Shown here piece by piece: positions 3,691-52,460 of a DNA stretch of 64,000 bases (the first letter of the stretch is position 1; each line of letters opens with the position of its first letter). The notes beneath the pieces were generated by a model. That model saw nothing but the letters and a program-made list of their open reading frames with translations. It was not told the origin of the DNA and searched no databases. A program made the position numbers and the translations under genes. This DNA comes from Sphingomonas sp. Root720. GTDB taxonomy: Bacteria > Pseudomonadota > Alphaproteobacteria > Sphingomonadales > Sphingomonadaceae. The stretch spans positions 101,345 through 165,344 of the forward strand of contig NZ_LMID01000013.1 of the NCBI RefSeq assembly GCF_001428605.1. The letters run 5' to 3'.

Positions 3691-4189
3691 ATCTTCACCG
3701 GGCCCGCGGCTCACCGAAACAGCGCCGGCGGCGGCGCTCGTCATGGCGCTGGGCGATCCGGCGGTGGTCGAACAATTTCTGGTCGATCGCCACGGCCTGC
3801 CCTTGCCACCGGTCGGCAAGCGTATCGAGCGGCCGGGTCGATCCATCCTGTTCGTGGCGCCGGGCAAATGGCTGGTCCTCGACCATCATGGTTCGGACGG
3901 GTTCGTTGCGTTGCTGACCGAGGGATTGCAGGGGATCGCCGCGGTCACCGACCAGAGCGATGGCCTGCGGACCTTCCGCATCTCCGGCAAGGGCGCCGCC
4001 GAACGGCTGCAGAACTGCGTCGCCGTCGACCTCCACCCCGCCCGTTTTCGGCGCGGATCGGCGATGGCCACGATGATCGGGCTGATGCGCGTCCATCTGT
4101 CCAGGATCGATGACGAGCCGACCTACGAACTGTCGGTGGCCCGCAGCCTGGCCGACAATCTGATCACCCATATCGGGACCGAAGCATGA
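3683..4189 (+). CDS. soxG: Sarcosine oxidase gamma subunit
   Basis: A 168-residue protein. The chosen ATG overlaps the end of soxA by eight bases and fits the family length; an earlier in-frame start would give an implausible Arg/Pro-rich leader. SoxG is a T-protein-like accessory subunit that packs against the alpha subunit. Features include [11 protein letters not shown], a central [16 protein letters not shown] typical of the family and [16 protein letters not shown] near the C-terminus. It completes soxBDAG and overlaps purU by four bases (ATGA), so the operon continues. Confidence 0.9.
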
Positions 4190-5052
4190 CCCAAGTCGAC
4201 TCTATCATCTTCACCCTCGCCTGCCCCGACACGCCGGGCATCGTCGCGGGCGTCAGCAACTATATCTTCGAAGGCGGCTACAACATCATCGAAGCCGGCC
4301 AGTTCACCGACAGTTCGACCGGCAAGTTTTTCATGCGGATCGAATGCGGCGCCACCGGCGAAGCGCAGGGCTTCGACGCCTTCAGCACCGGCTTCGCACC
4401 GCTGGCCGACAAATGGCATATGGACTGGAAGATGCGCCCGGCCACCCGCAAGACGCGGGTGATGCTGCTGGTGTCGAAGTTCCACCATTGCCTGTCGGAC
4501 CTGATCTATCGCTGGCGCACCGGCGAACTCGACATGGACATCGTCGGCATCGTCTCGAACCATCCGGCGGAAACCTTCGCCAGCATCGACTTGAGCGGCA
4601 TTCCCTTCCACCATCTGCCCGTCACCCGCGCGACCAGGACCGAACAAGAAGAACGGATCTTGTCCCTCGTGCAGGACAGCGGAACCGATCTGGTCGTCCT
4701 CGCCCGCTATATGCAGATCCTGTCCGACGACATGTCGGCGCGGCTGTCGGGCAAGTGCATCAACATCCACCACAGCTTCCTGCCCTCCTTCAAGGGCGCC
4801 AAGCCCTATCATCAGGCGTTCGACCGGGGCGTGAAGGTGATCGGCGCCACCGCCCATTATGTGACGAGCGACCTCGACGAAGGCCCGATCATCCACCAGG
4901 ACATCGAAGCGATCAGCCATGCGAACTCGCCCGACGACCTGATCCGGAAGGGCCGTGACATCGAACGGCTCGTGCTGTCGCGCGCGGTGCAGTTCCATCT
5001 TGAGGATCGCGTCATCCTCAACGGCACCAAGACCGTCGTCTTCGCAAAGTAA
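4186..5052 (+). CDS. purU: Formyltetrahydrofolate deformylase
   Basis: A 288-residue protein with an N-terminal ACT domain (~7-85, beginning [19 protein letters not shown]) and a C-terminal formyl-transferase fold. The catalytic region [17 protein letters not shown] (~192-208) carries the conserved Asn and His, and SDLDEGPII (~227-235) carries the conserved Asp. PurU hydrolyses 10-formyl-THF to formate and THF. Next to sarcosine oxidase and folD it releases folate from methyl-derived one-carbon units and supplies formate. It overlaps soxG by four bases and ends five bases before folD. Confidence 0.95.
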
Positions 5053-5057
5053 CAACC

Positions 5058-5921
5058 ATGGCACGACTCATCGACGGGAAGGCACGCGCCGCATCGCTGC
5101 GGCGATCGGTGGCGCGAGACGTGGAGGCCTTCGCCGATGCCGTCGGCGCGCCACCGACATTGGCCGTCGTACTGGTCGGGGACGATCCAGCCAGCCGCGT
5201 CTATGTCGGCCGCAAGCTCGCCGCCTGTCGTGAAACGGGCATCCGCTCGATCGAACATCGTCTGCCCGCGACCGCGGCGCAGGCGGATCTGCTGGCCCTG
5301 ATCGACCGGCTCAACGCCGACGACGCGGTCCACGGCATCCTCGTCCAGTTGCCTCTGCCCGCACCGCTCGATGCCGCCGCACTGCTCGACCGGATCGCAC
5401 CGGTCAAGGATGTCGACGGCTTCCATCCGGTCAATGTCGGCCGGCTGTCGACGGGGAGCGATGGTCTCGTTCCCTGCACGCCGCTCGGCTGCATGATGTT
5501 GCTGGAACAGGTGGTCGACGATTTCCGCGGTCTCAAGGCGGTAGTGATCGGCAAGTCCAACATCGTCGGCAAGCCGATGGCGCAACTGCTGCTCGAACGC
5601 GAGTGCACCGTCACCGTGACCCACATCCATACCCGCGACCTGCCCGGCATCGTGCGCGCCGCCGACATCGTCGTGGTCGCAGCGGGCAGTCCGGGGCTGG
5701 TGCGTGGCGACTGGGTCAGACCGGGCGCCGTGGTCATCGACGTCGGCATCAACCGCCGCATCGCCGAGGATGGCAGCTCCTATCTGGTTGGCGACTGCGC
5801 GACGGGAGAACTGGATCACGCGGGCGCGATCACCCCGGTGCCCGGCGGCGTCGGCCCCATGACGGTCGCCTGCCTGCTGGCAAACACCGTTCGCGCGGCC
5901 CGGAGCCAGCAGCATGTTTGA
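5058..5921 (+). CDS. folD: Methylene-THF dehydrogenase / methenyl-THF cyclohydrolase
   Basis: A 287-residue protein of normal FolD length. Signatures: [15 protein letters not shown] (~116-130), the NADP-binding region [13 protein letters not shown] (~165-177), VIDVGINR (~227-234) and the closing [13 protein letters not shown] (~262-274). It converts 5,10-methylene-THF made by SoxA to 10-formyl-THF, the substrate of PurU, so soxBDAG-folD-purU forms a full route from sarcosine methyl to formate. The 3' end overlaps the folB-like gene by eight bases. It may be a second, pathway-specific FolD copy, which the window cannot show. Confidence 0.95.
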
Positions 5922-6351
5922 GGACCGTCGCGGCCATGACCGCTCCCCTGCGCTGATCGCCCGGCAGCAGATCTCCATCGAGGATCTGGTCATCGAAGCG
6001 GACATCGGCGTCGATCCGGACGAGATCGGCCGGCGGCAGACGCTGATCGTCGACATAAGGCTGGACGTCATGCCAGTGTGGGACGACAGGCTCGACGCCA
6101 CCGCCGATTATCGATCGATCGCCGATCGCGCCGCGCGGCTGGGCCAGAGCCGCACCGGCCTGATCGAGATCTTCGCCAACCGCCTCGCCGCCGAGTGCCT
6201 GTTCGACCCGCGCGTGCTGGCGGTCGAGATCCGCGTTCGCAAGCCGCTGGCCCTGGTGAACGGCACAGCTTCCGCCTCGGTCCGACTGGTTCGCAACGGA
6301 GCTGACGGCTTCTGGGCAGCCCCGTCGCACACCGTCTTCGGCCGCGCCTGA
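5914..6351 (+). CDS. FolB-like dihydroneopterin aldolase family protein
   Basis: A 145-residue protein with the dihydroneopterin aldolase fold: it opens the domain with [29 protein letters not shown], followed by [10 protein letters not shown] and a late [11 protein letters not shown] segment. FolB acts in pterin biosynthesis. Here the gene is the last intact member of a sarcosine-oxidation and C1-folate operon, overlapping folD by eight bases. It could be a genuine aldolase keeping folate supply in step with demand, or a relative with another pterin-linked role. Family assignment is good; the exact reaction is uncertain. Confidence 0.75.
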
Positions 6352-6371: not shown

Positions 6372-6965
6372 ATGACCGATTTCGCTCCACCCACGCCTGC
6401 ATCTGCCGCGACCATCGCGGCGATCGAGGCGCTGGAAACGCGGCTGCGCTGGCTATCGGCCTGGACGATCCACAATGCCAACCACCTGCGCGACAGCCGC
6501 GACGGCCTGAAGGTTGGTGGCCACCAGGCGAGCTGCGCGTCGATCACCGCGATCATGAGCGCGCTCTATTTCCACGCGCTGCCCCCGCAGGACAAAGGTG
6601 GCGGTGAAGCCGCGCGCCGGGCCGGTGCTGCACGCGATCCGTTATCTGCTCGGCAATCAGAGCCTCGACCAGCTGCAGCGCTTCCGCGGCCTCGGTGGCG
6701 CACAGAGCTATCCGAGCCGCACCAAGGACAAGGTCCCGGTCGACTTTTCGACCGGCTCGGTCGGCCTGGGCGTCGCATCGAGACGCTGCTCGACGCCTTC
6801 GCGCAGGCCGATGACGACAAGCCGATGATGTTCATCGCCTATACGGTGAAGGGCTATGGCCTGCCCTTCGCCGGCCACAAGGACAACCCCGCCGGGCTGA
6901 TGAACCCGACCCAGATCCACGGGCTGCGCGACAGCCTAGGCATCGCCGAGGGCAGCAAATGGGAG
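6372..6965 (+). pseudogene. Broken transketolase-like (thiamine diphosphate enzyme) gene
   Basis: Three pieces of one transketolase/E1-type protein lie in order but in different frames. Piece 1 (6372 to ~6594) has DGLKVGGHQASCASITAIMSALYF. One extra A in the run at 6594-6596 shifts the frame, and piece 2 (~6598-6778) reads VKPRAGPVLHAIRYLLGNQ, then QSYPSRTKDKVPVDFSTGSVG. At about 6778 a deletion joins this to piece 3 (~6778-6965), ending FIAYTVKGYGLPFAGHKDN and NPTQIHGLRDSLGIAEG; there the homology stops. An intact relative would be several hundred residues longer, so most of the central and C-terminal domains are missing. It follows folB by 20 bases and was probably once the operon's last gene. 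Confidence 0.8.
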
Positions 6966-7171
6966 CGCAGCCAGCACCATTTTCGGGGTCTTTTGGCCTA
7001 GCGGCTCTACGAACGCTGTTATCATGGGTTCTGAGCAAGTCTGGTATTTGCCATGCATTTGCTCCCGACAGGTCAGGAACGGGTAACCGCATGGCAGCAA
7101 ACCGCGCTTCCATAACCCCATCTGGTCGCCTGGCCGGCTGGGACTGGACTGATCAAGTCAACCGGATCGGG
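6966..7171. other. Junction DNA between the transketolase remnant and the GntR gene
   Basis: About 200 bases with lower GC than the flanks and no supported gene. It begins exactly where the transketolase homology ends, so it probably marks an old rearrangement endpoint. A short leftward open frame here reads MITAFVEPLGQKTPK but matches no family I recognise. No clear terminal inverted repeats or target duplication were found. Confidence 0.4.
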
Positions 7172-8044
7172 TCAGTTGGAGAGTTGCTCCGGATCCAGGG
7201 ACATCGAGAGCTCGAACATCGTTGGCGATGCCAGCATCTCGAAATATTCGATCAGTCGCCCGCTCTGATCGAAATGTTGACGTCGAAGCTGCAGCAGAGG
7301 GCTGCCGACGGCGACGTTAAGCAGTGGCGCCACGACCGGATCGGCCAGTTGCGCGCTCACTACCTGCTGGCCCGAATGCAGCCGGACACCGCTTCTAGCG
7401 AGCAACTTGTACAGCGACGTACTGTTCAACTCTTCGCGGGTGAACTCCTTGCCCAGTTCCTGGGGGATGAACGTGATGATGTGGAAGATCGGCACCTGCC
7501 CCATCGATCGCAGCCGGACGGCACGCTGGAACACCGCGCTGTCGTCGCAATCGAACATCGACTGCACGTGAAAAGGCGCGCGGACGTAGTCGAGTTCGAG
7601 CAGCCGGACCTCGGTCTTCCGATCGATGTCGGCGATATGTTCGATCACGCCGGTCACTGAGGCGTGAAGTTGGGTCGGTCTTATGGTCGGTGCGACGAAT
7701 GTTCCGACGCCCTGCCGACGCTCGATCAAATGCTCGGCCTCCAGCGTGGTCATCGCCGACCTCAGCGTGATGCGCGAGACCGAGAACAGCCGCGCCAGCT
7801 CGTCTTCGCTCGGAAGCATCTGCCCCGCTTCATAATACCCGTTCAATATCCGGTCGCGCATGACCAGGAATATCTGATGGTTGAGCGATGAGCCCTGCCT
7901 GCGAACGAGCCTCGGGCCAGCAACTTCGGCGTCCGTCGACGCGGCGCCTTTGCTCCGACGCGCCCGTCGATCACCAGCGCTCTGATCGCGTCCCCCTCGC
8001 ATAGTCGTCTTGACCTTCAAACTTCCAACCGATCCGGACACCAC
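7172..8044 (-). CDS. GntR family regulator with UTRA domain (HutC subfamily)
   Basis: Up to 290 residues. The winged-helix DNA-binding domain spans ~55-120 (MRDRILNGYYEAGQMLPSED, then LARLFSVSRITLRSAM and RRQGVGTFV), and a UTRA ligand-binding domain fills ~140-285. The first ~45 residues are Arg/Lys-rich and poorly conserved in appearance, so the true start may be internal. It is divergent from the leuC-led operon across 113 bases holding a good promoter, so it very likely represses that operon and senses a pathway metabolite. HutC-type proteins often bind small carboxylates or sugars; the ligand is unknown. Confidence 0.88.
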   Translation of the reverse strand: MVSGSVGSLKVKTTMRGGRDQSAGDRRARRSKGAASTDAEVAGPRLVRRQGSSLNHQIFLVMRDRILNGYYEAGQMLPSEDELARLFSVSRITLRSAMTTLEAEHLIERRQGVGTFVAPTIRPTQLHASVTGVIEHIADIDRKTEVRLLELDYVRAPFHVQSMFDCDDSAVFQRAVRLRSMGQVPIFHIITFIPQELGKEFTREELNSTSLYKLLARSGVRLHSGQQVVSAQLADPVVAPLLNVAVGSPLLQLRRQHFDQSGRLIEYFEMLASPTMFELSMSLDPEQLSN

Positions 8045-8101
8045 GACGCGCCCCTTGTGTGCTGCTTATAATGAGTGAGTCCGTCTGTCCAATTCCCCGG
8101 C

Positions 8102-8129
8102 TTGATAAGTTTAGTTGTATTGATATTAA
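8102..8129 (+). promoter_or_regulatory. Candidate promoter of the leuC-led operon
   Basis: TTGATA (8102-8107) and TATTAA (8124-8129) are separated by 16 bases, a reasonable sigma-70 pair. They lie about 30 bases before the leuC ATG, in AT-rich DNA that stands out from the GC-rich surroundings. TTGATA recurs at 8120-8125, so a regulator bound here would cover the promoter. A strong ribosome site (GGGGAG) lies at about 8148-8153. Confidence 0.4.
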
Positions 8130-8157
8130 GATGACATAACGAATCACGGGGAGCAGG

Positions 8158-9567
8158 ATGGCGCGTACGATGTTCGACAAGATCTGGGCGGAGCACAGGA
8201 TCGCCGACCTCGGCGGCGGGCTCACCCTGCTCAACGTCGACCGCCACCTGATCCATGATCTGGTCGCCGGCCCCGCTTTCGATCGGCTGGCCGCGCGCGG
8301 CCTGCCGGTTCGCAACCCCGAGCGCACTTTCGCCACCCCGGACCATGGCGTGACCAGCCAGCCCGACCGGCCCGCCCGGCTCGACAAGGTGGCGACCAAG
8401 CTGCTTGACGACATGCGCCACCACAGCCGCAAAGCAGGCGTCCAACTGTTCGATATCGGCCAGGACGGTCAGGGAATCGTTCATGTCGTCGGCCCCGAAC
8501 TGGGCCTGACCCTGCCGGGCAGCCTGATCGTCTGCGGCGATAGCCATAGCTGCACCCATGGCGGCCTGGGGGCGCTCTCCTTCGGCATCGGCACTACCGA
8601 GGTCGTGCATGTCCTTGCCACGCAGACGATCCGCCAGCGCAAACCCAAGGCGATGCGCATTACCTATACCGGCGAACCAGGTCGCGCGGTCACCGCCAAG
8701 GACATCATCCTCTTTACCATCGCCAAGCTCGGCACGAAGGCCGGAACCGGTCACGCCGTCGAATATGCCGGCCCGGCGATCGCTGCACTCGACATCGAGG
8801 AGCGGTTGACGCTGTGCAACCTGTCGATCGAGCTGGGCTCCAAGATCGGCATGATCGCGCCCGACGACCGCAGCTTCGCCTATCTCGCGGGCAAGGCCTT
8901 CGCACCGAAAGGCGCGCTGTTCGATGCGGCGGTCGCGCATTGGCGGACGCTGACGACCGACGAGGGCGCGCGCTTCCACATCGAGCATCATATCGACATC
9001 GGCGAGATTACTCCGCAGGTAAGTTGGGGCACCAGCCCCGAGGACGTCATCGCGATCGATGGTCATGTTCCCGATCCGGACATCGAAACCGATCCGGCAC
9101 GCCGACAGCGCATGATCGAGGCTCTGGACTATATGGGCTTGACCGCCGGCCAGCCGTTGGCCGGCGTACCGATCGACCGGGTGTTCATCGGCTCCTGTGC
9201 CAATGGCCGGCTGTCGGACCTGCGCGCCGCCGCGCGGATCGCCGCGCGCGGCACAGTCGCCGCGAATGTCCAGGCCTGGGTCGTCCCCGGTTCGCGCCGG
9301 GTCCAGCAAGCCGCCGAGGCCGAAGGGCTCGACCGCATATTTCGCGACGCCGGCTTCGAATGGCGCGAGCCCGGCTGCTCGCTCTGCCTATCGACCGCCA
9401 ACGAGCAACTTCTGCCGGGCGAACGATCGGTTTCCACCACCAACCGCAATTTTGTCGGCCGGCAGGGCCTGGGTGCCCGCACTCACCTCGCCAGCCCCGC
9501 GACCGCCGCAGCTTCCGCCCTCGCCGGCACAATCTGCGATGTCCGCGCTCTGGAAGGACGAGCATGA
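8158..9567 (+). CDS. LeuC-type dehydratase large subunit (3-isopropylmalate dehydratase family)
   Basis: A 469-residue aconitase-superfamily large subunit of normal LeuC length. Cluster ligands are visible: Cys347 in GSCANG and Cys407/Cys410 in PGCSLCLS, giving a [4Fe-4S] site. The substrate region VCGDSHSCTHGGLGALSFG (~123-141) is LeuC-like. With the LeuD part of the next gene it should form an isomerase that moves a hydroxyl on a malate derivative. The order regulator-leuC-leuDB-glcG-amidohydrolases suggests a catabolic paralogue rather than the leucine pathway copy, so I give no symbol. The stop overlaps the next start (ATGA). Confidence 0.88.
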   Translation: MARTMFDKIWAEHRIADLGGGLTLLNVDRHLIHDLVAGPAFDRLAARGLPVRNPERTFATPDHGVTSQPDRPARLDKVATKLLDDMRHHSRKAGVQLFDIGQDGQGIVHVVGPELGLTLPGSLIVCGDSHSCTHGGLGALSFGIGTTEVVHVLATQTIRQRKPKAMRITYTGEPGRAVTAKDIILFTIAKLGTKAGTGHAVEYAGPAIAALDIEERLTLCNLSIELGSKIGMIAPDDRSFAYLAGKAFAPKGALFDAAVAHWRTLTTDEGARFHIEHHIDIGEITPQVSWGTSPEDVIAIDGHVPDPDIETDPARRQRMIEALDYMGLTAGQPLAGVPIDRVFIGSCANGRLSDLRAAARIAARGTVAANVQAWVVPGSRRVQQAAEAEGLDRIFRDAGFEWREPGCSLCLSTANEQLLPGERSVSTTNRNFVGRQGLGARTHLASPATAAASALAGTICDVRALEGRA

Positions 9568-11315
9568 CCCCCTTCACGACCCTGACCGGCATCGCGGCCC
9601 CGCTGCCCCTGCCCAATATCGATACCGAGGTGATGATCCGGATCAGCCGGCTCATGGAGTTCGGCAAAGGCGCGCTCGGCCCCTATCTGTTCGAACCGCT
9701 GCGCTACGATGCCGATGGCGCCGAGGATCCGGACTTTACGTTGAACCGTCCAGCCTTTCGCACCAGCAGCATCGTGATCGGCGGCGATAATTTCGGTTGC
9801 GGCAGTTCTCGCGAGGCTGCGGTGTGGGCGCTTCTCGATTTCGGTATCCGTTGCATCATCGCGCCAAGCTTCGGCGACATCTTTGCGGTGAACTGCCTGC
9901 AGAACGGCCTGTTGACGATCCGCCTGCCGGCCGAGGAGGTTGCCGCCCTCGCGGCCGAGATCGCGATGGACGATCCGCAGCCCTTCACCGTCGACCTGGA
10001 GGCGCAGACGATCACGCCCCCTTCGGGCCGGAAGCTCGGCTTTCCGATCGATCCGGGGGCCCGCGCCGCCCTGCTCGATGGCCTCGACGAGATCGACCAG
10101 ACCCGCCAGCTCGACGCCGAGATCGGCGCGCATCAGCGCGCCCGCGACGCGGCGCTGCCATGGGCCAACGGCTCGCTTGGCCGGGGCGTGCCACGCGTGC
10201 TGATCATGGCCGGCGACGGCGTCGGCCCCGAGGCGATGGACGAAGTGAAGCGGGTGATCGACTGGTTCGTCTCGAACCGCGGCCTGCGCGTCGACCTGCA
10301 CGAAGAACTCTACGGCATCTCCGCTTGGAAGGCCCATGGCGCGGTCGTCCGCCCCGAGGCCTGGGCGCTGATAGACGCGGCCGACGCGATATTGTTCGGC
10401 GCCAGCGGATCGCCGGAATATGACGCCATTCCGCGCCACCACTGGCTCCCCGACAACCTGCTCAAGATGCGCAGCCGGCTCGACCTGTTCGACAATCAGC
10501 GCCCGGTCCGCGCCTTCGCGGGGCTGGAAGCGATGTCGAGCCTGCGTCCGGAGATCATCGAGGGCGCCGACATCGTCATCGTCCGCGAACTCACCGCCGG
10601 TCTCTATTTCAGCGAGCCGCGCGGTATCGAGACCCTCGACGACGGCCGCCGGCGCGGCACCAACAGCATGACCTATACCAGCGACCGGGTCGAACGGATC
10701 GGCCGCGCCGCCTTCGAACTGGCGCGACGCCGCGGTGGGCGGCTATGCTCGGTCGACAAGGCGAACGTGCTGGAGGTCAGCATGCTGTGGCGCGACGAGA
10801 TCGAGAAGCTCCACGCCGAATATCCCGATGTGGAACTGACCCACATGTATGTCGACAATTGCGCGATGCAGCTGGTGCGCAACCCGCGCCAGTTCGACGT
10901 GATCGTCACCGAGAATCTGTTCGGCGACATCCTGTCCGACTGCGCGGCGATGGTGGCCGGATCGATCGGCATGCTGCCTTCCGCCTCGATCGGCCCCAGC
11001 GACGTCACCCGCCGGCGCCAGGCGCTCTACGAACCGATCCACGGCAGCGCGCCCGACATCGCCGGGCGCGGCATCTGCAATCCGGTCGGATCGATATTGA
11101 GCTTCGGCATGTGCCTGGAACAGAGCTTCGGCCTGCCCGAGGAAGCGAAGCTGCTGGACCGGGCTGTCCAGCGCGCGATCGACGGCGGCGCCCGCACCGC
11201 CGACATCGCGGGCGGCCTGCCCGCCATCGGCACGCGCGCGATGGGTGACGCGGTGCTCCGCGCGCTCGACGTGATCCATCACGAAACCAAACCCGCGCTG
11301 GTCGCGGCAGATTGA
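9564..11315 (+). CDS. Fused LeuD-LeuB protein: dehydratase small subunit joined to isopropylmalate-dehydrogenase-like enzyme
   Basis: One uninterrupted 583-residue frame holds two proteins that are normally separate. Residues 1-~190 are LeuD, with GGDNFGCGSSREAA (~73-86) and IIAPSFGDIF. Residues ~190-208 are a charged linker. Residues ~209-583 are a full beta-decarboxylating dehydrogenase: AGDGVGPEAMDEV near the start, RELTAGLYFSEPRG, the catalytic SVDKANVLEVSMLWR (~396), VTENLFGDILSD and YEPIHGSAPDIAG. No stop, frameshift or new ribosome site separates the halves. A LeuC/LeuD isomerase could thus hand a 3-substituted malate straight to oxidative decarboxylation. The start overlaps leuC by four bases. 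Substrate unknown. Confidence 0.88.
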   Translation: MTPFTTLTGIAAPLPLPNIDTEVMIRISRLMEFGKGALGPYLFEPLRYDADGAEDPDFTLNRPAFRTSSIVIGGDNFGCGSSREAAVWALLDFGIRCIIAPSFGDIFAVNCLQNGLLTIRLPAEEVAALAAEIAMDDPQPFTVDLEAQTITPPSGRKLGFPIDPGARAALLDGLDEIDQTRQLDAEIGAHQRARDAALPWANGSLGRGVPRVLIMAGDGVGPEAMDEVKRVIDWFVSNRGLRVDLHEELYGISAWKAHGAVVRPEAWALIDAADAILFGASGSPEYDAIPRHHWLPDNLLKMRSRLDLFDNQRPVRAFAGLEAMSSLRPEIIEGADIVIVRELTAGLYFSEPRGIETLDDGRRRGTNSMTYTSDRVERIGRAAFELARRRGGRLCSVDKANVLEVSMLWRDEIEKLHAEYPDVELTHMYVDNCAMQLVRNPRQFDVIVTENLFGDILSDCAAMVAGSIGMLPSASIGPSDVTRRRQALYEPIHGSAPDIAGRGICNPVGSILSFGMCLEQSFGLPEEAKLLDRAVQRAIDGGARTADIAGGLPAIGTRAMGDAVLRALDVIHHETKPALVAAD

Positions 11316-11335
11316 ACCCCAAGGGAGAAACATCG

Positions 11336-11755
11336 ATGAACGCCGTTCTGCACCAGGCCCGCAAATTCTGTGAATCGGTCCTCGAACATGCCGAGCGCTA
11401 CAGCCTCGCCGTGTCGGTGGTGGCGGTCGACAAGGGTGGCCACCTGATCGCACTCTACCGGACCGATCGTGCCATCTTCGCATCGAGCGAGGCCGCCCGC
11501 CGCAAGGCGGTCGCCGCATCGGCGATGGCGATGCCGACGTCGGCGATGGTCGACATGTTCCGCAACGACCCGCTGGTGACGACCGCGCTCAGCGCGAGCG
11601 GCGACATGCTGGTCGTGCCGGGCGGCTTTCCCCTGATCGTCGACGGCAATTGCGTCGGTGGCTACGGCATCGCCGGCGGCCATTACAGCGAGGACGAGAT
11701 GCTCGGCGGCCGCGCGCTCGCGGCCCTTGCCGGCAGGGAGTATGAGCCGGCATGA
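11336..11755 (+). CDS. GlcG/HbpS family protein
   Basis: A 139-residue protein of the GlcG/HbpS (heme-degrading/heme-binding-like) fold. It has the usual order: SVVAVDKGGHLIALYRTDRA, an Arg/Lys-rich AARRKAVAAS helix, a middle PGGFPLIVDGNCVGGYGIAGG loop and a C-terminal helix ending near ALAALAG. The start at 11336 follows AAGGGAGAAA. Members sit in many catabolic operons (glycolate, diol and aromatic loci), usually with unproven roles. The stop overlaps the next ATG (ATGA), so it is translated with the amidohydrolase. Confidence 0.85.
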   Translation: MNAVLHQARKFCESVLEHAERYSLAVSVVAVDKGGHLIALYRTDRAIFASSEAARRKAVAASAMAMPTSAMVDMFRNDPLVTTALSASGDMLVVPGGFPLIVDGNCVGGYGIAGGHYSEDEMLGGRALAALAGREYEPA

Positions 11756-12819
11756 TCGACGACGTCTTCGTCGTCGATGCCACGGTGCATGGCGGCCATT
11801 TCCACCGGGACAACTTGCTGATCCCCCAGCTGGAGGAACTGACCAAGCTCCTCTACCACTGGGGTAACGGCCATCTGCAGCCGTTCGGCTTCGACGAATA
11901 TAAGGTCAACTACGACCAGTTCACCGAGCGCTTCGCGCTGCAGCCCGCCCTGCTGGAAAGCCTGTTGTTCGCGGAAAGCGACATCGACGTCGCCGTCTAT
12001 CAGGGCGTGCCGCTCTACGGCATGTACAAGGACGGCAGCTCGCCCCTGTGGGTCGCGGCGGAGATCGCCAAGCGCTTCCCCCACCGCATGTTCCTCTACG
12101 GCGACCTGACGCCACGGATGAGCGACCCGATCGCCCATATCGACCATCTGGTCGACGACATGAACGTCATCGGCGTGAAGATGTACCCGCTCGACATGGT
12201 CGAGGGCCGGTTGACCGAGAACCGCTTCGACGACGAGAAGCTGATGTTCCCGCTGTTCGAGCATATGCTGAAGCGCGGGCTGAAGGTCGTCGCCGTCCAC
12301 AAGGCGGTGCCGCTCGCCCCCGCGCTGGTCGATCGCTACCATGTCGACGACATGGCGCCAGCGATCGCCGCCTTCCCCGATCTGACCTTCGAGATCGTCC
12401 ATGGCGGCTTCGCCTTCGGGCAGGAGATCGCGGCGCTGCTCGATCGCTATCCGAACGTCACGGTGAACCTCGAATCGACGCCCTGCTATGCGCTCAACTT
12501 CCAGGACAAGTTCGCCGAGATGATGGCGCCGCTGCTGGCGACCGGCGCGGACCGGCTGTTCTTTTCGACCGGCGCGCCGATCATGCACCCCGATCCCTTC
12601 ATCCGGGCCTTCAAGGATTACCGCATGCCCGCCGGCTATCCGCCGCTCGACGACGCCACCAAGCGCGGCATCCTCGGCGACAATTTCGCGCGGGTGCACG
12701 GCTGGGACGTCGAGGCGCTGAAGGCCGCGTGCCGCGCCGACCAATTCGGGCTGGAGGGAAAGACCAAGACCACCCCCTGGTCCGTGATCCGCAACTCTGT
12801 CGTGGGAGAGGCCGCATGA
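11752..12819 (+). CDS. Amidohydrolase-fold protein, copy 1, with altered metal-site motifs
   Basis: A 355-residue TIM-barrel protein of the amidohydrolase-2 type (ACMSD/LigJ-related). The strand-1 motif is DATVH (~8-12), where the family normally has D-x-H-x-H, so the first His is Thr. Later histidines in VVAVHKA (~178) and FEIVHGG (~215) remain. The strand-8 Asp (usual GSD) reads FFSTGAP (~265). It may use a reduced or different metal site. It is paralogous to the gene at 13255 along its whole length and is coupled to glcG upstream and the MIP18 gene downstream by ATGA overlaps. A hydrolase, hydratase or decarboxylase role is possible; the reaction is unknown. Confidence 0.82.
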   Translation: MIDDVFVVDATVHGGHFHRDNLLIPQLEELTKLLYHWGNGHLQPFGFDEYKVNYDQFTERFALQPALLESLLFAESDIDVAVYQGVPLYGMYKDGSSPLWVAAEIAKRFPHRMFLYGDLTPRMSDPIAHIDHLVDDMNVIGVKMYPLDMVEGRLTENRFDDEKLMFPLFEHMLKRGLKVVAVHKAVPLAPALVDRYHVDDMAPAIAAFPDLTFEIVHGGFAFGQEIAALLDRYPNVTVNLESTPCYALNFQDKFAEMMAPLLATGADRLFFSTGAPIMHPDPFIRAFKDYRMPAGYPPLDDATKRGILGDNFARVHGWDVEALKAACRADQFGLEGKTKTTPWSVIRNSVVGEAA

Positions 12820-13202
12820 CCGTCACCGCCCCTGTCCTGGTCGCCGACAAGGACCTCGCCGACCGCATCGGCGAATGCCTGAACGCCATCGTCGATCCGT
12901 GCAGCATCGCCGCGGGCGCACCCGCCGGCCTGGTCGACATGGGCCTGGTCATGACGTCGGAGATCGAGCCGCGCGACGAGGGCGGCCTGCGCGCCGTCAT
13001 CGCCATCGGCATCACTCACCCCTTCTGCATGATGGCGGGCGTCTTCCTCAACGAGGTGCGCCAACGGGTCGGCGCGATCGAGGGGATCGAGGAGATCGTG
13101 GTGACCCTCGACAGCGACACCGTCTGGACCCCCGCATTGATGAGCGACGCCTATCGCGCGCGCCTCGACGCGGTCCGCTCGGCGAAGCGCATCCCGCAAT
13201 GA
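12816..13202 (+). CDS. MIP18/DUF59 family Fe-S cluster assembly-type protein
   Basis: A 128-residue single-domain protein of the MIP18 (PaaD/SufT) family: NAIVDPCSIAAGAPAGLVDMGL near residues 22-43 and the THPFCMMAG region with the conserved Cys near residue 70. Relatives help load Fe-S clusters or metals into target enzymes. It lies exactly between the two amidohydrolase-fold genes and four genes after a [4Fe-4S] LeuC, so either may be its client. The ATG overlaps the previous stop by four bases. Confidence 0.82.
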   Translation: MTVTAPVLVADKDLADRIGECLNAIVDPCSIAAGAPAGLVDMGLVMTSEIEPRDEGGLRAVIAIGITHPFCMMAGVFLNEVRQRVGAIEGIEEIVVTLDSDTVWTPALMSDAYRARLDAVRSAKRIPQ

Positions 13203-13254
13203 CACCCATGCCCGCCGCCGAACACGGGCAGGCCGGGCGGCGAGGAGAGATGAG

Positions 13255-14328
13255 ATGATCGAAGGCAATCTGGTGATCGACGCGACCGTCCACGCGTTCA
13301 ACTTCCGCGAGGACAATCTGCGGCAGCCCTTCGTCTCGGACGTGATCCGGGGGCTATACCACTGGGTCTACAACCAGCTCGGGCCGCAGGACGATCCGCG
13401 TTACCGCATCACGCTCGACCAGTTCCAGAACCTGTTCGATCATCAGCCGCGCGTGATGGAAGAGGTGGTGTTCCGCGAGAGCGACGTCGACGTCGCCGCC
13501 TATCACGGCGTTCCGATGTACGGCTTTTTCGGCGATGGCTCCTCGCCGATCAACATCGCCGAGGCGATCAAGGCGCGCTACCCGCATCGCATGCTGGTCT
13601 ATGGCGGCCTCAGCCCGTGGGAGGAGGATCCCGCCGGCAAGCTCGCCTCGCTGATCGACGACCACGCGGTCACCGGGATCAAGCTCTATCCAGCGGACAT
13701 CGTCGAGGGCGAGTTGAAGCGCATCCGCCTCGATGACGAGAAACGCATGTTCCCGCTGTTCGAAATGGCGCGAGCGAAGGGGCTGAAGGTCATCGCCATG
13801 CACAAGGCGCTGCCGCTGGGGCCGATCACGATCGACCATTATCATCTCGATGACGTCGAGGCGGCGCTGGTGGCCTTTCCCGAGATCACCTTCGAGATCG
13901 TCCATGGCGGCCTCGCCTATCTCGACGAGACGGTCCGGCTGCTCGATCGCTATCCCAACATCTCGGTCAACCTCGAGGCGGCACCCTGCTATGCGATCAA
14001 CCACAGCGACCGCTTCGCGGAAATGATGGCGCCACTGATCGGATCGGGCGCGCACGACCGCGTCTTCTTCTCGACCGGCGCCACCGGCGTTCATCCACAG
14101 CCGTTTATCGAGGCCTTCTGGCGCTATGAGATGCCGCGCGGTTTCCCGGCGCTGACGGAAGAGATCAAGATCGGGATCCTCGGCGCCAACTTCGCCCGCC
14201 AACACGGCCTCGATGTCGAGAAGCTCAAGCGCCAGTGCAAGGCCGACGACATCGGCCGCAGCAATGGCCGATCCGAGCCCTGGTCCTGGCTTCGCGCCCA
14301 GACCGCCGCCGCTCGCTCCGCCGCCTGA
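13255..14328 (+). CDS. Amidohydrolase-fold protein, copy 2, with altered metal-site motifs
   Basis: A 357-residue paralogue of the gene at 11752. Shared blocks include VIDATVHAFNFRED (~6-19), YGMY/YGFF-type DGSSP loops, GIKLYPADIVEG, IAMHKALPLGP, FEIVHGGLAYLDE and FFSTGATGVHPQPF. As in copy 1, Thr replaces the first His of the HxH motif and the strand-8 Asp is missing, so both copies share the change. A ribosome site (GAGGAGAG) lies just before the ATG. The two copies could form a heteromer or act on consecutive intermediates. It is followed seven bases later by the membrane protein gene. Confidence 0.82.
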   Translation: MIEGNLVIDATVHAFNFREDNLRQPFVSDVIRGLYHWVYNQLGPQDDPRYRITLDQFQNLFDHQPRVMEEVVFRESDVDVAAYHGVPMYGFFGDGSSPINIAEAIKARYPHRMLVYGGLSPWEEDPAGKLASLIDDHAVTGIKLYPADIVEGELKRIRLDDEKRMFPLFEMARAKGLKVIAMHKALPLGPITIDHYHLDDVEAALVAFPEITFEIVHGGLAYLDETVRLLDRYPNISVNLEAAPCYAINHSDRFAEMMAPLIGSGAHDRVFFSTGATGVHPQPFIEAFWRYEMPRGFPALTEEIKIGILGANFARQHGLDVEKLKRQCKADDIGRSNGRSEPWSWLRAQTAAARSAA

Positions 14329-14335
14329 CGAAGAC

Positions 14336-15148
14336 ATGATGCCCCCCACCTCTACGCCCCCCGCGCTCCGTTGGCTGCTGGGCAGCTATGGCATCGGCCT
14401 GACGGCGGGCGGTATCGCGCTGATCGCCGCGCCGGACTGGGCCAACCGCATGGAAGCGGGGGTAACCGGGACGTTCGTCGAGCATCTTGCCCAGTCGCGC
14501 GGTGCCGCGGTGCTCGCTCTCGGGGTGATCGCACTCGCTGCGCTGCGCAGACCTGAGCGCCACCGCCGGCTGCTGCCCGGCCTCGCCTGGTCGGCGGCCC
14601 TGCTAGGCGGCCTCTTCCTGATGGTCCAGCTATCGCCGCAGACAACACCCTGTCGCTGGATCGCAGTGCTGTTCTGCTCGCTCTGGGCGGCTGGCCTTGC
14701 CTGGCAGGCTGGCCGGTCGATGGGGGAGCAGGACGCACCCATGTCGCCACCCCGCCTCACCGAACCCGGCCATATGCTGATCCTCAGCTTCGCGCTGTGG
14801 ACAGGCATCACCGGTCTGCTGTGGCTCGTCGCGCCCGGACCGCTCGGCTCGAAGTTGGAAGCCTTGGCAGGTCCCGGCGCCGGCTATTTCGCAGCCGCGC
14901 GCGGCGCGGTCGATCTCCCGCTGGGCTGGATCGCCTGGACGGTGCGCGACCGCGTCCTCAGCGCCGCTGCCCGGCCCGCGATCATCGGCATCTTCGTTGC
15001 CAACATCATCTTGTCGATAGCGGGCCTGATAGCCCAGCTCGAAAGCATCGCCACGCCGTCACGCTGGCTGATCGAACTGCTGCATATCGGCTGGATGGCC
15101 GGTGCAGGAGCGCTTCTCTGGCAGGGCTCGAAATCCGATAATTCCTAG
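14336..15148 (+). CDS. Polytopic membrane protein with internal duplication
   Basis: A 270-residue protein with about eight predicted membrane segments in two similar halves (~10-125 and ~140-262). Each half starts with a Trp/Leu/Gly-rich helix followed by a short polar loop (APDWANRMEAG; APGPLGSKLEALAG), then R-G-A, and ends with TPCRW or TPSRW followed by a last helix. I recognise no named family. The same architecture returns in the gene at 17436, which has TPERW. It is the last gene before the TonB receptor and so belongs to the same cluster; a transport or sensing role is only inferred. Confidence 0.7.
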   Translation: MMPPTSTPPALRWLLGSYGIGLTAGGIALIAAPDWANRMEAGVTGTFVEHLAQSRGAAVLALGVIALAALRRPERHRRLLPGLAWSAALLGGLFLMVQLSPQTTPCRWIAVLFCSLWAAGLAWQAGRSMGEQDAPMSPPRLTEPGHMLILSFALWTGITGLLWLVAPGPLGSKLEALAGPGAGYFAAARGAVDLPLGWIAWTVRDRVLSAAARPAIIGIFVANIILSIAGLIAQLESIATPSRWLIELLHIGWMAGAGALLWQGSKSDNS

Positions 15149-15163
15149 AGTCTTCAGTTGATT

Positions 15164-15175
15164 GACCGATCGGTC
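15164..15175. promoter_or_regulatory. 12-base palindrome upstream of the TonB receptor gene
   Basis: GACCGATCGGTC is a perfect palindrome, 8 bases upstream of the -35 element of the candidate receptor promoter. Such sites are often operators for TetR-type or similar dimeric regulators. None is encoded beside it, so the binding protein is unknown; it does not resemble typical GntR/HutC sites. Confidence 0.35.
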
Positions 15176-15183
15176 GAGATATA

Positions 15184-15212
15184 TTGACATCATGTCGTAT
15201 TAACATCATAAC
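15184..15212 (+). promoter_or_regulatory. Candidate promoter of the TonB receptor gene
   Basis: TTGACA (15184-15189) and CATAAC (15207-15212) are 17 bases apart, the ideal sigma-70 spacing. They sit in an AT-rich island between the membrane protein gene and the receptor. A small odd palindrome, GACATCATGTC (15186-15196), overlaps the -35 and could be an operator. The receptor may thus be transcribed separately from the enzyme operon. Confidence 0.45.
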
Positions 15213-15270
15213 AACATACAATCAGTACTCCCGCAGGGGAGGCTATGACGCTGACTTTTGGGGAGGACAT

Positions 15271-17397
15271 ATGAAGCGTTTCACACAGGCTTATCTGCTC
15301 GCCACCGCTGCCGCCATGATCGTGGGCGCGCCGGCCATGGCGCAGGATCAGGCCGATAGCGGCGCGATCGCCGACATCATCGTCACCGCGAACAAGACCG
15401 GGGCTTCCTCGGTGCAGCGCACCCCGATCGCCATCTCCGCCTTCTCGGGAGACGACCTAGCCGGTTCGCACATCGTCAGCACCAAGGATCTGGGCCAGAT
15501 CGTCCCCAGCCTCGCCGTGTCGCAATTCTCGACCTATGCGCAGATCTACATCCGCGGCGTCGGCTCCAACAATTCGTTCAACGGCTCGGACCCGAGCGTG
15601 ACCGTGCATGCCGACGGCGTCTATCTCGCCCGTCCCTTCGCCCAGTTCATGAACTTCCTCGACGTCGAGCGGGTCGAGGTTCTACGCGGGCCGCAGGGGA
15701 CGCTGTACGGCCGCAACTCGGCCGGCGGCACGATCAACATCATCTCGCGCACCCCGTCCAACGATCTTAAGGCGCGTATCGCGGCCAGCGTCGGCAATTA
15801 CGGACTGGTCGACGTTGGTGGCTATGTCAGCGGCCCGATTGTCACCGACAAAGTGCAGGTCAGCCTCGCCGGCTCCTATGTCACCCATGATCCCTATCGC
15901 GAGAATATCGTCGCGTCGGGCAACAATGTCGACGACGAGGACAGCCGGGCGATGCGCGGTCAACTGCGGCTGGTGCTGAGCGACCAGATCGTCGCGACGA
16001 CGCGCGGCGACTATGCCCTGTCGAAGCAGCGCATCCCGGGCTTCTCGGTGCTCCGCACCCCCTATGATCCCGTGACCAACAGCATCCTCGGCAATTACGA
16101 CAAGGTCGCGCTCGATTTCCCGCAGTCCAGCCGCACCCGCATCTGGGGCGTGTCGGAGGACATCGAGTTCGAGCTGAACGACAGCACCACGCTCAAGTCG
16201 GTCACCGCCTATCGCGACAGCAGTTCGCGCTCCCAGCAGGACGGCGACGCGACCGACCAACCGCTGCTGACCGTCAACCTGGGCGAGCGCGCCAAGCAAT
16301 TCTCGCAGGAACTCAACCTGGTCGGCACGGCCGGCAGTTTCGATTACGTCCTCGGCCTCTTCTACTTCAACGAGAAGACCCGCACGAACAGCATTCTCGG
16401 CCAGCCGGTCCGCAATCTGCGCGCCACCTTCCAGCCCTATACCCACACCAAGGCCTATGCCGGCTATGCGCAGGGCACCTATCGCTTCAGCGACACCCTG
16501 TCGGCGGTGCTGGGTGGGCGCTATTCGGAAGAAACGAAGGACTTCACCCAGTCGATCGACCGGCGCTTCGTGTCGACCAACGTCGCACTGCCCTTCATCA
16601 CCTATGCGGCCTCGCGCAAGTTCAAGTCCTTCACCCCGAAATTCGGCCTGAACTGGACTCCGACCCAAGCGATCCTCGCTTATGCGTCGGTGACGCGCGG
16701 CTTCAAGAGCGGCGGCTTCAACTTCAACTCGGCCAGCGCCGCACAGGGCTTCGATCCCGAGACGCTGTGGAGCTATGAAGCGGGCCTGAAGACCCGGTTA
16801 CTCGACAACCGGCTGCTCGCGAACCTCAGCGCCTTCCGCTATGATTACAAGGATCTGCAGGTCAACGCCTTCATCAGCCCCGGCGTGACCGACATCGTCA
16901 ACGCCGCCTCGGCGACGGTGAAGGGCGTCGAGCTGGAACTGACCGCCAAGCCGGTCCCCGGCCTGAACCTGACGGCCAACTTCGCCTATCTCGACGCGAC
17001 ATATAAGGACTATCCGGGCGCTCCGATCGGCGGCACCGCGACGATCGACGCCAGCGGCAACCGACTCAACAACGCGCCCAAGTTCACGATGAACTTCGCC
17101 GCGCAATATGAGCATCGCATCAGCGACAATGGTTCGGCCTATGTGCGCGGCGAATATTCGCGCCGCAGCCAGACATATTTCACCGTGATCAACTCGCCGG
17201 TGATCGGGCAGGACGCCTATGGTCTGGTCAACGCCGCGATCGGCTACAAGGCCGGCGAGCGTTGGACCTTCGAGCTGTGGGGCCGCAACCTGACCAAGCG
17301 CGAATATGTCCTCAACGTCTACACCAGCGGGCCGGTCCCCTCGGGCATTCCCGGTGCGCCGCGAACCTATGGCGCGCGGCTGAGCTGGACCTACTAA
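15271..17397 (+). CDS. TonB-dependent outer membrane receptor
   Basis: A 708-residue protein. A Sec signal peptide (to about AMAQ, residue 27) is followed by a TonB-box-like DIIVTANK, a plug domain with RVEVLRGPQGTLYGRNSAGGTINI (shown in part), and a beta barrel ending in the classic aromatic C-terminus SWTY. It carries substrates across the outer membrane using TonB energy. There is no STN domain and no linked sigma/anti-sigma pair, so it is a plain importer. It closes a cluster with the LeuC/LeuDB and amidohydrolase-fold genes and most likely imports that pathway's substrate. The ATG follows a strong GGGGAGG site. Confidence 0.93.
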   Translation: MKRFTQAYLLATAAAMIVGAPAMAQDQADSGAIADIIVTANKTGASSVQRTPIAISAFSGDDLAGSHIVSTKDLGQIVPSLAVSQFSTYAQIYIRGVGSNNSFNGSDPSVTVHADGVYLARPFAQFMNFLDVERVEVLRGPQGTLYGRNSAGGTINIISRTPSNDLKARIAASVGNYGLVDVGGYVSGPIVTDKVQVSLAGSYVTHDPYRENIVASGNNVDDEDSRAMRGQLRLVLSDQIVATTRGDYALSKQRIPGFSVLRTPYDPVTNSILGNYDKVALDFPQSSRTRIWGVSEDIEFELNDSTTLKSVTAYRDSSSRSQQDGDATDQPLLTVNLGERAKQFSQELNLVGTAGSFDYVLGLFYFNEKTRTNSILGQPVRNLRATFQPYTHTKAYAGYAQGTYRFSDTLSAVLGGRYSEETKDFTQSIDRRFVSTNVALPFITYAASRKFKSFTPKFGLNWTPTQAILAYASVTRGFKSGGFNFNSASAAQGFDPETLWSYEAGLKTRLLDNRLLANLSAFRYDYKDLQVNAFISPGVTDIVNAASATVKGVELELTAKPVPGLNLTANFAYLDATYKDYPGAPIGGTATIDASGNRLNNAPKFTMNFAAQYEHRISDNGSAYVRGEYSRRSQTYFTVINSPVIGQDAYGLVNAAIGYKAGERWTFELWGRNLTKREYVLNVYTSGPVPSGIPGAPRTYGARLSWTY

Positions 17398-17435
17398 GAC
17401 GCAGGCCGACAGGGCAGGACCGAGGAGGAGCCGTC

Positions 17436-18260
17436 ATGTTCAAGCTTGCAGCAGCAGCCTTGCTGTGCGCGCTCCTCTTCACGGTCGTCGCCTGGCGACG
17501 ACGCGGCGCGCGCTGGCTGCGCTTTGCTCTGGCGAGCTTCGCCTTCTTCGCTCTGATCACCGCCACGTTCTGGATCATATCGCCCGATGGCACTGCCCGC
17601 ACCGTCGAGGCCAATGCCGGCGGCACATTGATGCTGCAGATCGTCCAGGGACGCGGCACCATCGTTCTTCCTTTTGGTCTCGCCGCTCTGGCCGCCGCCT
17701 GGTTGTGGGCAGATCAAAAGTTTGCGGCCATGCTTGGCCCGTTTGCTTATAATAGCTTGATGACCATAGAGGCGATCCGCGCGCAGTTCACCTCGCTTGC
17801 CACCCCGGAACGCTGGACTTATGTGATCCTGCACGCATTTTGGGCCGTTTGTCTTGGCATTTACTGTTCTGGACTGAGCAGGCGATTGCCGCGCCGGATA
17901 CTCGTCGCCGCCTGCGTCAGTGCGCTCCCGATATTGGTCGGCACCACCCTCTATCTCGCTCCAACGCTTCTGATCGGCGCATCGCCGATAGTCCCCTCCC
18001 CCACCTTGCTCCTTCATTCGGCCCACGCTTTTGGCGCGTCGCTGATAGGTCTGGGTTTGGTCAGCTTCTCCTATTGGTCCGGTATGGCCGATCGACTGAG
18101 TCAAAATCTTTGCCTGGCGGCGGCGGCGTTCCTGATATCTATAGCGGCTCTGGACGGCTTATGGCCGGTGACTACCATTGCCCTGGCTTGGGGGGCGCTC
18201 CATCTCCTGCCCCGGCCTGCTCTCCGCGCTCGAACACCGGCGTCGCCTCAAACTATTTAG
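17436..18260 (+). CDS. Polytopic membrane protein related to the one at 14336
   Basis: A 274-residue protein with about eight hydrophobic segments, starting 38 bases after the receptor stop behind GAGGAGGAG. It shares layout and motifs with the 14336 protein: a first helix pair, a polar loop with DGTARTVEANAGG, a long hydrophobic pair, TPERWTYVILHAFW, then four more helices. Both lack any recognised family signature. Placement on either side of the receptor suggests both serve the same substrate, for instance inner-membrane passage after TonB-dependent uptake. It marks the right end of the cluster, where debris begins. Confidence 0.65.
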   Translation: MFKLAAAALLCALLFTVVAWRRRGARWLRFALASFAFFALITATFWIISPDGTARTVEANAGGTLMLQIVQGRGTIVLPFGLAALAAAWLWADQKFAAMLGPFAYNSLMTIEAIRAQFTSLATPERWTYVILHAFWAVCLGIYCSGLSRRLPRRILVAACVSALPILVGTTLYLAPTLLIGASPIVPSPTLLLHSAHAFGASLIGLGLVSFSYWSGMADRLSQNLCLAAAAFLISIAALDGLWPVTTIALAWGALHLLPRPALRARTPASPQTI

Positions 18261-48093: not shown

Positions 48094-48106
48094 GCCGCCG
48101 CGCCGA

Positions 48107-48460: not shown

Positions 48461-48462
48461 GG

Positions 48463-51150: not shown

Positions 51151-51201
51151 ATGGCGCGAATCGCGCCGCCGCTCAAGTGGTTATTTTGCACTGCGGCATA
51201 G

Positions 51202-52407: not shown

Positions 52408-52460
52408 GGAAAACCCCTTCGGATGCGGGCGCCGCCTCCCTGACGGCGCCCGATCGCCTG

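Follow-up and report, generated by a model that had tools for sequence, protein, structure and literature searches.

This analysis concerns a stretch of 64,000 nucleotides (the window) from Sphingomonas sp. Root720, positions 101,345 to 165,344 of contig NZ_LMID01000013.1, and in particular a set of ten genes at window positions 7172–18260. In order, they encode a GntR/UTRA regulator, LeuC, a fused LeuD-LeuB, a GlcG-like protein (GlcG), an amidohydrolase-fold protein (AmiA), a MIP18-like protein, a second amidohydrolase-fold protein (AmiB), a membrane protein (TM1), a TonB-dependent receptor, and another membrane protein (TM2). As we read the sequences, the balance tips modestly toward a substrate-induced catabolic locus for an aromatic or plant-derived branched carboxylate (the favoured substrate), in which a substituted malate would be the intermediate handled by LeuCD and LeuB.

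Automatic annotation labels these genes as leucine biosynthesis and "amidohydrolase". Such labels hide an apparently catabolic LeuCD group with a readable loop signature, and they also hide a widespread two-gene module of AmiA/AmiB relatives (Ami) and MIP18, for which a search of the open-licence literature yielded no function. This Ami-MIP18 module is the more unusual part of the locus. If the remodelled Ami site does hold iron, a very common protein fold would turn out to support a new chemistry.

LeuC and the fused LeuD-LeuB

LeuC keeps the iron-sulfur (Fe-S) cysteines of GSCAN and PGCSLC, and LeuB keeps the catalytic residues of the decarboxylase. Two loops are altered. LeuD reads RISRLM where the 19 leuCDB sets compared from the class have [YFWH]L[KT]T, and LeuB reads WLPDNLL where those sets have PExxLL. 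PMC7308503 reports that a recognition region in the isomerase small subunit sets substrate preference. The altered LeuD loop may well be that region and, judged by both altered loops, the substituent handled by LeuCDB would not be isopropyl.

In midpoint-rooted trees, from which partial rows had been dropped beforehand, LeuC falls in a 10-row group set against 21 rows (100/99) and in an 8-row group (98/93), and LeuD falls in an 8-row group (99/96). The companions are plasmid copies of Methylobacterium, Caballeronia Lep1P3, Paraburkholderia 22B1P, Tistrella, and Novosphingobium US6-1, and all 8 rows of the 8-row LeuC and LeuD groups carry an RIxR loop. The neighbours of these relatives were read from annotation, which the Tistrella record does not carry. 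In Methylobacterium currus, Caballeronia Lep1P3, Paraburkholderia 22B1P, and Azospirillum, LeuCD adjoin a gene annotated as isocitrate lyase/phosphoenolpyruvate (PEP) mutase family; in US6-1, the neighbours within an aromatic-looking cluster are genes for a coenzyme A (CoA) transferase and an HMG-CoA-lyase-family protein, and leuCDB of M. aquaticum is found beside pcaB-named and SMP-30 genes. LeuC and LeuD group with catabolic-looking plasmid copies that share the altered loop. In the LeuB tree, the window protein pairs with that of M. aquaticum (97/96).

Canonical-looking leuCD and leuB are present elsewhere in the genome of the window strain. The sequence-only reading (an earlier note on this DNA) had LeuCD and LeuB act on a substituted malate, and the LeuC and LeuD trees, the altered loops, and these second copies all support a substrate other than isopropylmalate. 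The isomerization and oxidative decarboxylation steps that it proposed gain support because LeuC and LeuD join catabolic-looking copies and the loop is altered. In short, that reading is right on the locus and probably right on LeuCDB.

The LeuD-LeuB fusion was toned down as a unique feature. A search of 385 genomes of the class at E 1e-150 gave 37 matches, among which only the one of the window strain lacks an internal stop. However, Root710 (another Sphingomonas strain, treated below) carries the same fusion (583 amino acids), and at a locus of Streptomyces NBC_00161 one open frame holds LeuD and LeuB, though the annotation lists LeuB only.

Two further leu loci of the same genome are worth recording. 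At L038 (6997–9901), LeuCD paralogues that again look catabolic stand with a gene of the PEP-mutase/PrpB family (under the prpB cut-off) and with genes that look hydantoinase-like by eye. L035 (8964–12090) holds another leuB-leuC-leuD set among apparent P450 and AMP-binding genes, with a LeuC 76% identical to the canonical-looking one.

A motif common to both halves of the locus

The leuC leader of Root710 contains an imperfect 30-base-pair (bp) palindrome, and a 15-bp half-site from this leader alone was used as the probe. Across the whole window, the probe has only three matches at up to 4 mismatches: one in the receptor leader, at 15192 (1 mismatch), and two in the leuC leader, at 8123 (2) and 8112 (4). 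Among 524 slices of 122 bp, 2 reach 2 mismatches or fewer and the other 522 have at least 5, and shuffling the receptor leader 5000 times never gave 1 mismatch or fewer. The probe also fits the receptor leader of Root710, with 3 mismatches, and an unrelated site (position 1517 of locus L032), with 4. A consensus from all sites, which is partly circular, gives six matches at up to 2 mismatches in the 5.59-Mb genome, the sole exact one being 15192.

Because the half-site is common to the leuC and receptor leaders and occurs nowhere else in the window at up to 4 mismatches, both halves of the locus probably form one regulon under the GntR/UTRA protein, which we infer to bind these putative sites. 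Two transcription units, one led by leuC and one by the receptor gene, are probable since the operator-like motif of the leuC leader recurs in the 122-bp gap before the receptor gene. The earlier proposal of one catabolic locus under one regulator draws support from this common half-site.

Conservation and borders of the set

In Sphingomonas sp. Root710, all ten genes are found in the same order, with protein identities of 58–93%. The ratio of nonsynonymous to synonymous substitution rates (dN/dS) between the window and Root710 is 0.11–0.35, and thus below 0.36 in every gene. The GntR/UTRA protein is 82% identical (dN/dS 0.11) and the receptor 86%. Two copies of the Root710 locus, L032 and L055, are among the collected loci.

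The flanks differ. In the window strain, sarcosine oxidase, PurU, and FolB genes lie upstream; in Root710, an MFS-like gene (by eye) lies upstream, and a benA-like oxygenase gene (677.5 bits, below the cut-off of 780.95), a beta subunit gene, and an SDR-like gene lie downstream. This difference sets the borders of the cluster. Since the ten-gene order is kept and dN/dS is low while the flanks have changed, the gene grouping is more than chance.

Outside these two strains, the set thins out. Relatives of AmiA occur in 10 of 60 genomes (E 0.001 or better, the own genome included), and AmiA and AmiB together in two, the own genome and Root710. Among 397 genomes of the family, 11 have an AmiA relative (E 1e-20), one of them with two separate single loci, and AmiA and AmiB stand side by side in two (own counted), the same two strains. 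The sequence-only reading would have been refuted by a lack of conservation beyond this strain. This is not the case, since Root710 has the whole set, but conservation is narrow (2/60 and 2/397 genomes). The whole cluster as a widespread pathway was rejected, as it was found in two species only.

AmiA, AmiB, and the MIP18 partner

In contrast to the full set, the pair of Ami and MIP18 genes is widespread. The best 80 of the 129 Ami relatives found in genome contigs were taken, and in 76 of these 80 a MIP18 gene starts at most 200 bp after the Ami gene. The total is 77 with L055 (Root710), where MIP18 lies between AmiA and AmiB. Two of the three unpaired cases end at a contig edge. The third, L132 (9001–11256), is the sole case found with a gene between Ami and MIP18, a hydrolase gene (alpha/beta hydrolase-like by eye). 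The nine further loci are all paired as well, among them L034, which is the same contig as L083. In the 397 family genomes, each of the twelve Ami loci, spread over the same 11 genomes, has one of the twelve high-scoring MIP18 matches (at least 80.9 bits). Below these the scores continue from 75.5; with 389 of the 397 genomes matching at E 1e-10, the lower matches are taken to be the housekeeping form. By their titles, the Ami-MIP18 records come from Proteobacteria, Actinobacteria, Myxococcota, Bacillus, Chloroflexi, and haloarchaea. In L128, a record titled Comamonas sp. KCTC 72670, the Ami protein clusters with those of Myxococcota at 70% identity or above, perhaps through a wrong label or a transfer.

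Residues were counted over 91 Ami proteins, whose 89 loci amount to only 38 groups at 70% identity. The metal-binding residues of the amidohydrolase family include an HxH after strand 1 and an Asp after strand 8. Position 11 is never His (89 of the 91 proteins have a residue there), and position 274 is never Asp (90 of 91 with a residue), although L064 has an Asp at 273. Invariant wherever aligned are H13, K143, Y145, H183, K184, H217, E241, and H279, and no column has Cys in over half of the 91 proteins. AmiA and AmiB pass the Amidohydro_2 fold profile and lack the HxH and the final Asp. Compared with the classical site, theirs is missing the first His of HxH and the final Asp and has acquired the invariant Glu241 and His279; two canonical metal ligands appear to have given way to a new Glu and a new His. 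Neither protein has an NCBIfam match at E 0.001, and a profile search with AmiA at E 1e-6 gives a single solved relative, the uncharacterised BB4693.

The MIP18-like protein has no Pfam match at E 0.001. In NCBIfam it resembles SufT/PaaD-like models only, below their cut-offs (48.8 vs 202.6 and 42.5 vs 143.4 bits), while a profile search gives the MIP18 fold (1uwd, E 2.4e-19). PCS and C71 are present in 26 of 26 rows of the partner alignment, and C71 is also invariant in a 21-row set. DPC with an insertion takes the place of DPE. Outside the 26-row set, the Ser of PCS is Met in L045 and L046 and Ala in L132.

The sequence-only reading let the amidohydrolase pair make the substituted malate by cleavage or hydration. 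With two metal ligands missing in the 91 proteins, and with a LeuC relative near the pair only in the two Root710 locus copies among 93 loci searched, this is not supported as stated, and the reading was too quick on this point. The lost ligands argue against ordinary amidohydrolase chemistry. That AmiA is an amidohydrolase of the LigI/LigJ type or of another curated kind was rejected because the ligands are lost and an NCBIfam match is lacking.

Apart from the broader role proposed below, two pictures of the pair may be given. One, which we regard as unlikely, is that AmiA-type proteins represent a novel class of amidohydrolase-barrel enzymes that depend on iron, here feeding a LeuCDB-type substituted-malate pathway. 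The set of three His and one Glu could then hold non-haem iron, which the MIP18 partner with its two conserved cysteines might supply or serve in redox.

The other is that AmiA/AmiB and MIP18 serve maturation, loading iron or Fe-S clusters into a partner (here LeuC, elsewhere oxygenases), and are not pathway enzymes. The MIP18 family works in Fe-S assembly, LeuC requires a [4Fe-4S] cluster, and the loss of metal ligands in Ami fits a role of this kind. In Aminobacter, a related pair lies downstream of diiron monooxygenase genes and ahead of GroEL, in line with a figure legend of PMC9213486, and in R. aetherivorans a related pair stands before alcohol dehydrogenase and GroEL genes. However, among 93 loci searched, a LeuC relative is found near the pair only in the two Root710 locus copies (L032 and L055), and the eight invariant residues resemble an active site. 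According to PMC7176365, the amidohydrolase-like protein of a Mim cluster, with no function given in the passage, accounts for 3.2% of the proteome, nearly as much as the monooxygenase small subunit (3.8%). This abundance, which would speak against a maturation role, does not decide the matter because the same source gives 4.0% for a GroEL-like maturation protein. All in all, we consider a maturation pair somewhat unlikely.

Some paralogues may be mentioned here. Those at L060 (2213–3202), L061 (3763–5050), and L062 (6488–7917) have Val or Ala at position 11, Glu at 274, and Ser or Ala at 241. The paralogues of L061 and L062 are each followed by a gene for a small NifU-domain protein, which again places an amidohydrolase-fold gene beside an Fe-S carrier gene.

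GlcG and a possible link to aromatic compounds

The nearest solved chain to GlcG is NahX (9jth, E 4.8e-14), which presumably has a naphthalene role. GlcG directly precedes Ami in L056, L057, L058, and L075, and a search of plasmids gave no GlcG match. In L058, LigB and LigK genes over curated cut-offs lie within 9 kb of Ami-MIP18. In L014, genes annotated as ligK and 4-oxalomesaconate tautomerase lie within the same distance, and L057 is similar by eye. The own genome has 17 matches to ring-hydroxylating oxygenase alpha subunits, 16 of them above the cut-off, and six LigB-family matches.

The wider neighbourhood of the module was tallied over 117 of 134 nearest-neighbour proteins at 32 of 38 representative loci, in a count with no random-locus control. 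The 17 neighbours left out were transposases, doubtful, short, distant, and contig-edge calls, one Ami, and one ordinary gene. SDR proteins lead (12), followed by ABC permeases of one family (6), P450 (5), AMP-binding (5), and HbpS-like (4) proteins.

A narrower version of the catabolic reading would make the substrate a protocatechuate-type ring-cleavage product. A lactone would be opened to a tricarboxylic 2-substituted malate, from which LeuCD and LeuB would give a 4-oxalocrotonate-like 2-oxo acid to the meta pathway. The RIxR loop has two Arg that could accommodate the extra carboxylate, and several neighbourhoods agree with the idea: leuCDB of M. aquaticum with the pcaB-named and SMP-30 lactonase-family genes, LeuCD of US6-1 within 4 kb of a gene annotated as protocatechuate 4,5-dioxygenase beta, and Ami-MIP18 near lig genes. 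On the other hand, the window set has no dioxygenase, cycloisomerase, or canonical lactonase, and the pcaB name is an automatic label. We find this version quite unlikely.

The proposed pathway

In the broader catabolic reading, the receptor, TM1, and TM2 would serve uptake. An early step on a branched carboxylate, aromatic or plant-derived, would fall to GlcG, AmiA, MIP18, and AmiB. AmiA and AmiB would be non-canonical amidohydrolase-fold enzymes and may rely on the MIP18 variant for their metal or cofactor. The product of this early step would be, or would yield, a 2-substituted malate. Going by family chemistry, LeuC/LeuD would shift its hydroxyl to give a 3-substituted malate, which LeuB, whose catalytic residues are kept, would oxidize and decarboxylate to a 2-oxo acid and CO2. 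Among open-licence papers, mostly judged from listings, none was recognised as describing the Ami-MIP18 module or a LeuCD-based catabolic route, which agrees with the earlier statement that no described pathway has this set.

Critically speaking, several observations weigh against this pathway. The full ten-gene set is known from two species only, the diverse neighbours of Ami-MIP18 point to no single substrate class, and no ring-cleavage or oxygenase gene was found inside the ten-gene set. The benA-like oxygenase, below its model cut-off, adjoins the set in Root710 only and not in the window strain. The three Leu trees have midpoint rooting only, and the next LeuB fork (87/75) joins the own canonical-looking LeuB. 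As this nearest sister group holds a canonical-looking protein, the LeuB tree by itself gives no ground for setting the locus apart from leucine genes. The leucine models are passed by leuC (589.1 bits vs the curated cut-off of 560.25 of TIGR00170), leuD (166.4 vs 116.25, TIGR00171), and leuB (386.9 vs 353.2, TIGR00169). Finally, leuCDB operons of Paraburkholderia, Caballeronia NK8, and Variovorax with transporter genes fall on the canonical side and have the loop LQKP; because these operons look catabolic too, "catabolic" LeuCDB are not one group.

The scores raise the question of whether the set simply holds spare leucine or leucine-like genes, i.e., an extra isopropylmalate isomerase and dehydrogenase beside unrelated catabolic genes. 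All three proteins exceed the curated leucine equivalog cut-offs, the catalytic residues are kept, and the LeuB tree is neutral, giving no separation from the own canonical-looking LeuB. Yet the genome has canonical-looking leuCD and leuB elsewhere, the set lacks leuA, the loops are altered, LeuC and LeuD are placed apart in the trees, and an operator-like motif is shared with the receptor. Spare leucine genes were rejected on the loops, the LeuC and LeuD trees, and the canonical-looking copies, and we regard them as very unlikely.

A different proposal would be a homologation module for a side-chain-extended amino acid or secreted product, with the receptor recovering that product, by analogy with the HphABCD route, which is reportedly used for homophenylalanine. 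At the locus of Streptomyces NBC_00161, leuC and the LeuD-LeuB frame indeed sit with adenylation-domain, chlorinating-enzyme, and 2-isopropylmalate synthase genes. The ten-gene set, however, includes no synthase, aminotransferase, or non-ribosomal peptide synthetase gene and no exporter recognisable as such, TM1 and TM2 being without a family match, and the Streptomyces LeuC and LeuD lie outside the window groups in the trees. We regard a homologation module as highly improbable.

Gene layout and surroundings

The nine genes from LeuC to TM2 lie on the forward strand, and the GntR/UTRA gene is divergent. Families were called by Pfam and NCBIfam profile searches at E 0.001, and the coordinates are collected in the table. 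All genes named by the sequence-only reading were found at their place and strand, with families that agree. Its same-strand genes divergent from a GntR/UTRA regulator stand, but "mostly" was a generous word for the overlaps, as 4-base overlaps occur at three of the eight junctions (LeuC/LeuDB, GlcG/AmiA, and AmiA/MIP18), or four if GlcG starts at its alternative TTG. The remaining junctions are gaps of 20, 52, 10, 122, and 38 bp, the 122-bp gap preceding the receptor gene. The receptor, which was said to end the cluster, is followed by TM2 as the terminal gene. The twin membrane proteins, TM1 and TM2, are indeed alike (30–36% identity in local BLAST pieces), and neither has a Pfam or NCBIfam family at E 0.001.

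Features of the ten-gene set, with positions in the window
Feature	Positions	Strand	Basis
GntR/UTRA regulator (start uncertain)	7172–8044	-	Pfam UTRA 1.7e-26, GntR 3.9e-19
Operator-like sites upstream of leuC, two facing half-sites	8112–8137	.	Motif search
LeuC-type [4Fe-4S] isomerase large subunit	8158–9567	+	Pfam Aconitase 5e-149, leuC models
Fused LeuD-LeuB, isomerase small subunit and oxidative decarboxylase	9564–11315	+	Aconitase_C and Iso_dh, single open reading frame of 583 amino acids
GlcG/HbpS-like protein	11336–11755 (alternative TTG start 11312)	+	Pfam HbpS-like 1.5e-25
AmiA, amidohydrolase-fold, apparently remodelled metal site	11752–12819	+	Amidohydro_2 5.3e-17, 62.9 bits vs 26.4 cut-off
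MIP18-like protein, DPCS motif, AmiA partner	12816–13202	+	TIGR03406 6.6e-13, below cut-off
AmiB, AmiA paralogue (53%)	13255–14328	+	Amidohydro_2 2e-12, 47.9 bits vs 26.4 cut-off
TM1 membrane protein	14339–15148 (start 14333 also possible)	+	Hydropathy peaks, similarity to TM2
Operator-like half-site upstream of receptor	15192–15206	+	Motif search
TonB-dependent receptor	15271–17397	+	TonB_dep_Rec_b-barrel 7.2e-53, Plug 2.3e-16
TM2, TM1-like, last gene conserved in Root710	17436–18260	+	Similarity to TM1

Elsewhere in the window, genes for the alpha and gamma subunits of sarcosine oxidase lead a one-carbon operon (754–6351, forward strand) that continues with purU, a gene resembling folD by eye, and folB. 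Between this operon and the regulator lies an open reading frame (6372–7001, forward strand) without family match, both ends of which weakly resemble pyruvate dehydrogenase E1 (3lpl, whole-sequence E 0.0026, with no single stretch significant); it is perhaps a decayed remnant of a 2-oxo-acid dehydrogenase. Further on, the region 45466–53705 (reverse strand) encodes a molybdopterin oxidoreductase, which is below all model cut-offs with formate dehydrogenase and nitrate reductase models in the lead, and a NarK-like transporter, so perhaps a nitrate assimilation cluster.

Comparison with known systems

With LeuC/LeuD/LeuB of leucine biosynthesis, the window proteins have in common the fold, the Fe-S cysteines, the decarboxylase residues, and curated scores over the cut-off. 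They differ in the RISRLM and WLPDNLL loops, the grouping of LeuC and LeuD, the LeuD-LeuB fusion, and the motif shared with the receptor.

The plasmid LeuCD operons and leuCDB of M. aquaticum belong to the same LeuC group, have GntR genes nearby, and, in all but Azospirillum, show an RI[ED]R loop. Unlike the window set, they are accompanied by transporter genes of the ABC or MFS type and, in most cases, by a lyase-family gene, and the stretches covered have no GlcG-Ami-MIP18 or receptor annotated. In M. currus, exbB/exbD/tonB-type genes lie about 7 kb from LeuCD. No characterised member of the RIxR LeuCD group was found in open-licence papers.

The operons of the Prm and Mim soluble diiron monooxygenases also have amidohydrolase and iron-sulfur-assembly genes side by side, and a figure legend of PMC9213486 marks an "amidohydrolase" and an "iron-sulfur cluster assembly protein" in monooxygenase operons, giving no function for them. 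The three Prm/Mim-type proteins compared, however, have His11 (HxH kept), Asp274, and Ala241, and their MIP18 partners have DPE. These pairs sit with GroEL and (in Aminobacter) monooxygenase genes, neither of which is among the ten genes of the window.

LigI and LigJ of the protocatechuate 4,5-cleavage pathway share the Pfam family Amidohydro_2 with AmiA and AmiB, whereas the latter lack the NCBIfam match and have lost the metal ligands. L058 has, besides Ami, a relative of 4-sulfomuconolactone hydrolase (below cut-off) and a protein that is LigJ-like by eye and has no NCBIfam match. For GlcG, finally, the nearest solved relatives are NahX and EfgA/HbpS of the GlcG family.

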